Shown: one piece after another, positions 21,174 through 21,812 of the stretch
Numbering within the stretch: the stretch's first letter is position 1
Layout of the letters: each line of letters begins with the position of its first letter
Assembly (NCBI GenBank): GCA_006218065.1
Contig: VBWE01000003.1
Span: 124,001-188,000 of the forward strand
Reading direction: 5' to 3'
DNA length: 64,000 nucleotides
Origin: Bacteroidota bacterium
Lineage (GTDB): Bacteria; Bacteroidota; Bacteroidia; Palsa-965
The notes under the pieces: generated by a model
Told to the model about the DNA's origin: nothing
What the model saw: only the letters and a program-made list of their open reading frames with translations
The model's database searches: none
Translations under genes and position numbers: made by a program

Positions 21174-21262
21174 GGTGAGGTGGGTGAGAGGCCGAAACCA
21201 ACAGTTTGCTAAACTGTCATACGGGTTAAACCGTATCGAGGGTTCGAATCCCTCCCTCACCG
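21174..21262 (+). tRNA. tRNA-Ser(GCT)
   Basis: 89-base class II tRNA. Acceptor stem GGTGAGG (21174-21180) pairs with CCTCACC (21255-21261), discriminator G 21262. The anticodon arm reads CAGTTTGCTAAACTG with anticodon GCT, which decodes AGC/AGT serine codons. A long variable arm (ATACGGGTTAAACCGTAT) and a GAGGG-TTCGAAT-CCCTC T arm complete it. CCA is not encoded. Its last bases and the downstream terminator are repeated 388 bp further on, on the far side of a GIY-YIG gene. Confidence 0.95.
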
Positions 21263-21329
21263 CTGAACTGCGCCTGCCATACTATGGCTTCGTTCAGCAG
21301 GCTTTTTTAGTAAGAATATTGTAGGTCTG
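21255..21329 (+). repeat. Direct repeat copy A: tRNA 3' end plus terminator
   Basis: Begins with the tRNA acceptor 3' strand CCTCACCG and continues through the terminator to GTAGGTCTG. Matches copy B at 21643-21728 apart from an 11-base insertion in B. Confidence 0.9.
21264..21308 (+). terminator. Terminator after tRNA-Ser
   Basis: CTGAAC (about 21263-21268) with GTTCAG, and GCCTGC with GCAGGC, form a stem that ends in TTTTTT at 21303-21308. The same sequence recurs at 21651-21708. Confidence 0.7.
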
Positions 21330-21365
21330 CCAACCTTATGCCTGGCGGGTTTTATTATAGATAAG

Positions 21366-21638
21366 ATGTGGTACGTGTATATTTTAAAAAGTATAAACAA
21401 GAGGTTTGTTTACATCGGTTCAACAAATAACCTGGAAGAACGATTACGCAAGCATAATGCTGGTTTATCCCAGTCAACCAAAGCATATGCGCCTTATAAG
21501 ATTGTAGCATACATGGCTGTAGAAACAGAAAAGCAGGCAAGGGCGCTGGAAAAATATTTTAAGACAGGTTCCGGGAAAGCGGTTTTGTATAAACGTATTT
21601 TAGGCTCACACCCCCTGGTCGACGAAGCTTTAGCGTAG
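21366..21638 (+). CDS. Small GIY-YIG endonuclease
   Basis: 90 residues, the normal size of stand-alone GIY-YIG proteins (UPF0213-like). The motif is VYILKSINKRFVYIGSTNNLEERLRKHN: Y-V-Y then YIG, followed by the conserved Arg (R27) in EERLRKHN and the catalytic Glu region (ALEKYFKTGSGKAVLYKR). Start ATG 21366 (MWYVYIL). Proteins of this type cut DNA, but most stand-alone copies have no known substrate. The gene lies between two direct copies of the tRNA-Ser 3' end plus terminator. Its last codons (LVDEALA) run into the palindrome at 21617-21644. Confidence 0.9.
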   Translation: MWYVYILKSINKRFVYIGSTNNLEERLRKHNAGLSQSTKAYAPYKIVAYMAVETEKQARALEKYFKTGSGKAVLYKRILGSHPLVDEALA

Positions 21639-21644
21639 TCGACC
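21617..21644. repeat. Palindrome GGTCGAC...GTCGACC at the GIY-YIG 3' end
   Basis: GGTCGAC pairs with GTCGACC around a 14-base loop (GAAGCTTTAGCGTA). Shares the GTCGAC core with the hairpin at 9518-9546. It overlaps the last codons of the GIY-YIG gene and abuts direct repeat copy B. Confidence 0.7.
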
Positions 21645-21728
21645 TCACCGCTGAACTGCGCCTGCTGCCCGCTTGCCATACTATGGCTTCGTTCAGCAGG
21701 CTTTTTTAGTAAGAATATTGTAGGTCTG
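21643..21728 (+). repeat. Direct repeat copy B: tRNA 3' end plus terminator
   Basis: CCTCACCG followed by the same terminator as copy A, with an 11-base insertion (21666-21676). The tRNA body is absent; only the acceptor 3' strand is repeated. Confidence 0.9.
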
Positions 21729-21812
21729 TGGTACGTGTATATTTTAAAAAGAATAAACAAGAGATTTGTTTACATCGGTTCAACAAATGACCTGGAAGAA
21801 CGACTGAGCAAA
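21727..21812 (+). pseudogene. Truncated second copy of the GIY-YIG gene
   Basis: Reads WYVYILKRINKRFVYIGSTN then DLEERL, nearly identical to the first 27 codons of the gene at 21366. The start codon is lost because about 38 bases before it are deleted (CTGTGG instead of GATGTGG), and homology ends after about 21810. It lacks the catalytic C-terminal part. It belongs to the same tandem duplication as direct repeat copy B. Confidence 0.85.

Follow-up and report, generated by a model that had tools for sequence, protein, structure and literature searches.

We uncovered, at the 3′ end of a bacterial tRNA-Ser gene, a compact DNA unit of about 388 bp that is probably a minimal selfish mobile element, entering the 3′ ends of tRNA and tmRNA genes and regenerating them by target duplication. 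It is centered on a lone gene for a small GIY-YIG endonuclease, and comparison of its relatives reveals one anatomy beside tRNA-Ser genes with four kinds of anticodon and beside several other RNAs in many phyla; mobility and copying are what these comparative patterns suggest. It is apparently a kind of small mobile DNA at tRNA and tmRNA ends that has not been described previously: in the open-access journal literature, we encountered mitochondrial, phage and casposon papers, and none that describes a bacterial tRNA-end GIY-YIG element.

The window, by which we mean the whole 64,000-nucleotide stretch of DNA analyzed, displays the unit in an occupied tRNA-Ser(GCT) locus followed by the remains of an older copy (Table 1). 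A direct repeat, CCTCACCGCTGAACTGCGCCTGC, is found at 21255–21277 and 21643–21665, and its first base is exactly the first base of the tRNA-Ser 3′ acceptor strand; the identity of the repeats R1 and R2 runs on to 21665 because a second hairpin comes after R2. An earlier note on this DNA had proposed that the tRNA 3′ end and its terminator region recur 388 bp downstream, followed again by a GIY-YIG gene that is truncated and startless, and both statements hold: the spacing is 388, and the second gene has CTGTGG (at 21726) in place of ATG and stops after ~85 nt. With respect to the differences between the copies, the 11-bp insertion that it reported is present (taking the spacing from 388 to 399), but its 38-bp loss is in reality one of 39 bp (from 399 to 360). 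Likewise, its “terminator” is the left terminal hairpin, or at the very least also that, and the inverse right hairpin, which overlaps the last codons and the stop of the GIY-YIG gene and abuts R2, had gone unreported. There is no other notable ORF between the repeats. The arrangement is not a product of chance, since it recurs at scores of loci.

Table 1. Features of the tRNA-Ser(GCT) locus in the window
Feature	Position	Strand	Evidence
tRNA-Ser(GCT), target gene, intact, CCA not encoded	21174..21262 (end 21262/3)	+	ARAGORN, Rfam RF00005
R1, left direct repeat: tRNA 3′ acceptor strand, G73, C74	21255..21263	+	repeat comparison
hpL, left terminal imperfect hairpin GC-TGAA-CTGCGC..GCTTCG-TTCA-GC	21262..21298	+	DNA fold z=-2.8, motif, co-varying arms
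GCAGGC then T run; recurring GCAGG, possible tRNA terminator	21297..21310	+	recurs at other loci
GIY-YIG endonuclease gene, 90 aa, intact	21366..21638	+	Pfam PF01541 E=1e-17
hpR, right terminal hairpin, inverse of hpL	21617..21644	+	DNA fold z=-3.1, motif, co-varying arms
R2, repeated tRNA 3′ end CCTCACCGC	21643..21651	+	repeat comparison
Hairpin of displaced older copy, with 11-bp insertion	21650..21697	+	alignment, DNA fold
Remnant of a decayed GIY-YIG gene: startless, truncated, with a 39-bp loss upstream	21729..21812	+	PF01541 E=4.7e-8

Relatives were drawn from a family/class sample of 59 genomes, from named genome contigs (the best 80 of 104 matches) and from a phylum sample of 392 genomes, of which 30 match at E<=1e-16, with 8 further matches there given no locus of their own. 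The 136 loci thus collected (L001–L136) come to 132 after removal of 4 tandem mates or duplicates and to 124 non-redundant relatives after removal of 8 near-copies. The earlier note had staked its proposal on an association of GIY-YIG genes with tRNA 3′ ends in other genomes, and this is what the census displays: the gene lies behind a same-strand tRNA in 91 of the 124 (the named-contig part being the best 80 of 104), at distances of 4–459 bp (median 106), and behind a tmRNA in 11, as recovered by an Rfam scan of 17 tRNA-less loci. From the tRNA density of the window’s own genome, we estimate that ~0.3% of genes would be expected to have a same-strand tRNA no more than 600 bp upstream. An opposite-strand tRNA is upstream in none of the 124, and an upstream tRNA within 600 bp is always on the same strand. 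The remaining contexts are a same-strand tRNA downstream only (11/124) and a miscellaneous class (11/124), several members of which are cut by contig ends or show, on visual inspection, pieces of a tRNA or tmRNA (L009, L047, L055, L096 and L131). In the 132-locus set, the upstream tRNAs are those for Ser (69), Leu (11), Met (6), Ala (3) and others, with the Ser anticodons gct (30), gga (14), tga (14) and cga (11). The range of targets is wider than the tRNA-Ser 3′ end of the earlier note, extending to any tRNA-like 3′ end and, in some branches, to the 5′ end. Among the best 80 of 104 named-contig matches, the records of the three RNA-linked groups span 20 NCBI phyla, those with tRNA-Ser targets alone 13; collections of phages, plasmids and viral contigs yielded no match. 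Within the window’s own genome (57 tRNAs in 5.26 Mb), five of the eight PF01541 matches lie within ~500 bp of a tRNA; two GIY-YIG genes stand in a row behind its tRNA-Val, a 43-nt near-copy of that tRNA’s end lying between them, and another is found behind tRNA-Ala.

The tmRNA (ssrA) group comprises small same-strand GIY-YIG genes 58–362 bp behind the RNA (loci L094, L095, L099, L102, L103, L105, L014, L020, L023, L025 and L036). The tmRNA 3′ end is clearly repeated at one of the 10 testable loci, L036, which also features both hairpins; the others may represent an older, settled branch.

The earlier note had called for a survey of flanking tRNA-end copies, and at 66 of 96 testable loci the repeat downstream of the gene outscores every one of 60 dinucleotide shuffles, with the other 30 not rising above them. 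In the set of 62 tRNA-Ser loci, which feature 30 distinct R1 sequences, a locus’s own R1 recurs behind the gene at 33 loci (at least 12 of 13 nt, 3′-anchored), versus 18 of 3542 trials with R1 sequences from other loci under the same criterion. Therefore, the repeats derive from each locus’s own tRNA. They cover about tRNA positions 60/61 to 73/74, are mostly 12–18 nt long and lie on both outer sides of the unit, which is why the tRNA stays whole. Many loci have a single gene but two tRNA ends, with R2 giving way to an unrelated flank or, often, to a native-looking terminator (by eye); where an unrelated flank comes after R2, the repeat mostly ends at ~C74, and 4–5 nt later at L040, L048, L057 and L069. 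In a single clade (L059, L061, L064, L065 and L122; SH-aLRT 95), there are five different R1 sequences, and R2 equals R1 over 13/13 positions in four members, R2 not having been found in L065. In the downstream-only class, it is the tRNA 5′ end that is repeated upstream of the gene (10 of 11 loci). A branch associated with tRNA-Leu (L010, L128, L129, L131, L132 and L137) displays a further peculiarity: the tRNA piece beside the gene is broken, in its T arm or 5′ part (by eye), by a palindrome of the type CCTGCCTGCCG..CAGGCAGG, which could protect the repeat against renewed cutting.

The two hairpins are one imperfect motif, placed in inverted orientation at opposite ends of the unit in the tRNA-Ser set. 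The left motif, CTNCG..CTTCG, is found at 50 of the 62 loci (shuffle mean 1.2, maximum 6) and missing at 12; the right one, CGAAG..CGNAG, is found at 48 (shuffle mean 1.6, maximum 7) and missing at 14. Both occur together at 40, and the wrong-orientation motifs number 3 on the left and 0 on the right. The basal arms co-vary: pairing is 0.89 versus 0.50 for re-dealt arms on the left (49/62 loci, 22 distinct arm pairs), a value biased by the choice of the best-pairing arms among a few candidates, and 0.79 versus 0.41 on the right (48/62 loci, 32 distinct), where the arms were not so chosen. Both window hairpins fold well as single-stranded DNA; two single mismatches interrupt the stem in the window’s hpR and in the hairpins of L042, the latter with z of only -1.3 and -1.9. 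The reading frame of the gene enters or passes the right hairpin at 26 of 48 loci. On the left, the outer arm starts at the tRNA’s own C74 (plus CCA where encoded), and hence the inner arm complements the end of the target. This arm usually has complementarity to the bases that follow the tRNA end and may serve as a guide. Separately, there is no sign of a dispersed REP-like hairpin family, as ACTRCGC..GCTTCGT occurs at 6 places in the genome (3 of them in this locus) and a control pattern at 3. At L037 and L068, the left hairpin appears a second time downstream of the gene, with its inner part reverse-complemented and its stem kept.

An empty site in relatives, which the earlier note had also sought, was found in one genus, probably Fodinibius on the basis of loci L052 and L057, which carry that name and are near-copies of its loci. 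The tRNA-Ser(gct) neighborhood is recognizable in all 12 genomes of this genus, with the GIY-YIG match in three (G338, G326 and G280) and absent from nine. The 359 bp from the tRNA end to the end of R2 in G280 are missing in G134, G204 and G447, whose joined flanks are, over the aligned bases, 81, 80 and 78% identical to those of G280, respectively (G411 at 77% and G302 at 60% being the further congeners in this comparison). Most of the unoccupied loci retain a left hairpin; in G204, a hairpin is accompanied by the apparent start of a lost GIY-YIG gene (by eye). Gain and loss are indistinguishable here, because recombination between the repeats would delete the unit exactly and the left hairpin mostly remains. 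In another genus, one and the same tRNA-Ser is occupied in the congeners G127 and G450 by different GIY-YIG lineages, which share 61% and 39% identity with the window protein, and each of these has a repeated tRNA end of its own. In G450 (L214, 2087–2750), a repeated tRNA-Ser piece is broken by a long hairpin and followed by a truncated second GIY-YIG copy of another lineage. In G446 of the 12-genome genus (L151), an integrase-like ORF lies downstream of tRNA-Ser(gct), at the end that bears GIY-YIG units in congeners (by eye), and two kinds of elements may share this one site. In the window’s own family, the tRNA-Ser(gct) genes of G004 (97%) and G008 (93%), where only the tRNA matched, lead into an ordinary-looking terminator with no GIY-YIG match nearby. 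The Rfam family Plastid-psbl-rps4, which probably contains antisense tRNA-Ser, matches window positions 21209–21262 on the minus strand, antisense to the tRNA-Ser, at 54.4 bits, below its cut-off of 68.

The earlier proposal that the tRNA 3′ end, terminator and GIY-YIG gene copy themselves as a unit beside the tRNA is supported by the census, the repeats, the tandem units and the occupied and unoccupied alleles, from which the copying itself is inferred. In the mechanism that we propose, the Slx1-like nuclease would recognize the imperfect terminal hairpins and cut at their feet and at a tRNA-like 3′ end; insertion with repair would duplicate that end, and repeated hits on one tRNA would drive older copies outward to decay, as in the window. 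More specifically, we tentatively propose a new class of bacterial transposable elements, for which the case is about balanced if slightly short of persuasive: a lone GIY-YIG protein of 80–90 residues would be the transposase, reading structured hairpin ends whose mismatches are conserved and inserting in tRNA and tmRNA 3′ ends (in some branches, 5′ ends) with a duplication of mostly 12–18 nt, possibly guided by the inner arm. A possible but rather doubtful alternative is homing, wherein tRNA 3′ ends that lack the unit are cut by the nuclease and acquire the gene through homologous recombination with a copy that has it, the second tRNA end then being the displaced native end and the hairpins terminators or regulatory structures. 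GIY-YIG is a class of homing endonucleases, occupied and unoccupied alleles exist at one site as in homing genes (3 of the 12 congeners being occupied), long repeats that include the hairpins would aid recombination, and a recombinational history could yield much of the anatomy. The mobile ORFs (mORFs) of fungal mitochondria also display the same order of gene end, endonuclease ORF and displaced native end, as far as the excerpted account goes (PMC3630166). However, homing copies between like sites, and the 30 different tRNA ends matched within one family imply that new targets were entered often. Moreover, terminal inverted hairpins with co-varying arms are, to our knowledge, not part of homing endonuclease genes. 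Thus, as new target sequences were entered repeatedly and the ends are built like those of transposons, we favor a transposition-like, nuclease-driven insertion with target duplication over pure homing, with recombination possibly sharing the work.

The protein itself is a member of the GIY-YIG superfamily, with 64.6 bits against the Pfam PF01541 cut-off of 22.6 and the conserved Y..Y-x-G, R and E residues. Across 42 aligned sequences, G18, R26, H30, E62 and Y64 are invariant, Y5 and Y16 nearly so, and K66, G70 and R77 also kept. The AlphaFold model of the 90-aa protein (pLDDT 93) resembles the Slx1/UPF0213 nucleases, the best PDB matches being UPF0213 BH0048 (1zg2) and Slx1 (7cq2, 4xlg and 6seh), all with Foldseek E-values above 0.001; NCBIfam profiles gave nothing above cut-offs and PHROGs weak endonuclease matches only. 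In a quick tree of 118 proteins over 85 columns, in which many forks are open, the proteins group by type of target (a clade for tRNA-Met at 100, one group for Leu and one rich in tmRNA loci), while Ser anticodons and phyla are mixed. The dN/dS values of 0.03–0.22, where computable among the 40 closest pairs, indicate purifying selection. One could see here a cellular factor for processing or repair, co-transcribed with the tRNA or tmRNA and maintained by selection, with hairpins serving as RNA processing or termination signals: such constraint, the invariable co-orientation with upstream tRNAs within 600 bp and the mostly repeat-less Bacteroidota tmRNA branch would fit such a role. Yet, this is improbable for a gene matched in merely those 30 genomes of the phylum sample, absent at the same tRNA in nine of 12 congeners and mixed across phyla on the tree (57 changes of phylum label, against a minimum of 22 and a shuffled mean of 86). 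Moreover, only as inverted repeats do the two hairpins have a motif in common, which is suggestive of their being recognized in DNA.

Behind a tRNA-Leu in G288, five tandem copies at 450-bp spacing, identical at 444–450 of 450 positions, are followed by a decayed distal copy; that it is the distal copy which has decayed, here as in the window, agrees with the tRNA having been entered repeatedly. It is very improbable that slippage or unequal recombination merely duplicated a tRNA end with an immobile resident GIY-YIG gene once in the window’s genome. Near-identical arrays like this one exist, and the two copies in the window lie side by side and agree at 93% over 85 nt. However, loci with one gene but both repeats contradict such an event, and the unrelated flanks or native-looking terminators after R2 and the patchy presence among related genomes also speak against it.

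If the element behaves as we propose, a fold known for homing, repair and restriction would also power a one-gene, insertion-sequence-like element of less than 400 bp, aimed at sites that rank with the best conserved in bacterial genomes. This would account for the small GIY-YIG genes behind tRNA and tmRNA genes, offer a small, tractable setting in which to study DNA insertion that is structure-guided and site-specific, and raise the question of how the element crosses phyla without a visible carrier. Were the GIY-YIG protein indeed a transposase, the element would rank among the smallest autonomous mobile elements, spread over ~20 phyla with no visible phage or plasmid carrier.

Several known systems share individual features with this unit; those nearest to it in behavior are the mitochondrial mORFs, casposons at tRNA ends and the homing genes of phages near tRNAs. 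Like insertion sequences, it has terminal inverted repeats and short direct repeats derived from the target; the known transposases are of the DDE, HUH, serine and tyrosine classes, none of which is present, the GIY-YIG gene being the sole one in the unit. The IS200/IS605 and REP/RAYT elements likewise feature imperfect terminal or subterminal hairpins and base pairing between element and flank; they use an HUH Y1 transposase and are not known to make target duplications or to be tied to tRNA ends, whereas the tRNA-end unit has a GIY-YIG protein in lieu of the HUH TnpA and duplicated ends. Tyrosine-recombinase islands at tRNA 3′ ends carry an integrase and cargo, and the tRNA is made whole again by a duplicate of its 3′ end (att); in contrast, our unit is ~390 bp long and has no integrase or other recombinase gene between its repeats. 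SegB of phage T4 belongs to the GIY-YIG class, and we know of no terminal hairpins or tRNA-end repeats in it or in free-standing GIY-YIG homing endonucleases. UPF0213 BH0048 (1zg2) and Slx1 are the nearest solved folds to the predicted protein; Slx1 differs in being listed with Slx4 on branched DNA, and the entry titles give no role in mobile elements. By the excerpted text of PMC10448857, SegB is a homing endonuclease that favors inheritance of a T4 tRNA gene region; it is unlike the unit in being phage-borne. Casposons, as far as the excerpted PMC4046053 describes them, have terminal inverted repeats and target duplications, and some of their integrations overlap tRNA 3′ ends and leave the gene unaltered; however, they encode Cas1 and PolB, with a GIY-YIG gene only as an extra in one casposon, whereas the ~390-bp unit has one ORF and neither of these genes. 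The mORFs are reported from atp6 of Allomyces and from atp6, atp9, cox2 and nad3 of Glomus (PMC3630166, in excerpt): an endonuclease ORF (LAGLIDADG, and GIY-YIG in atp9) lies behind the gene’s 3′ end with the native end displaced. Their targets, however, are mitochondrial protein genes, the excerpt describes no terminal inverted hairpins for them, and the inserted end is regarded as foreign to the host gene; a displaced end is present at the tRNA-end loci, yet as a rule the two repeats, R1 and R2, agree with one another and with the local tRNA.
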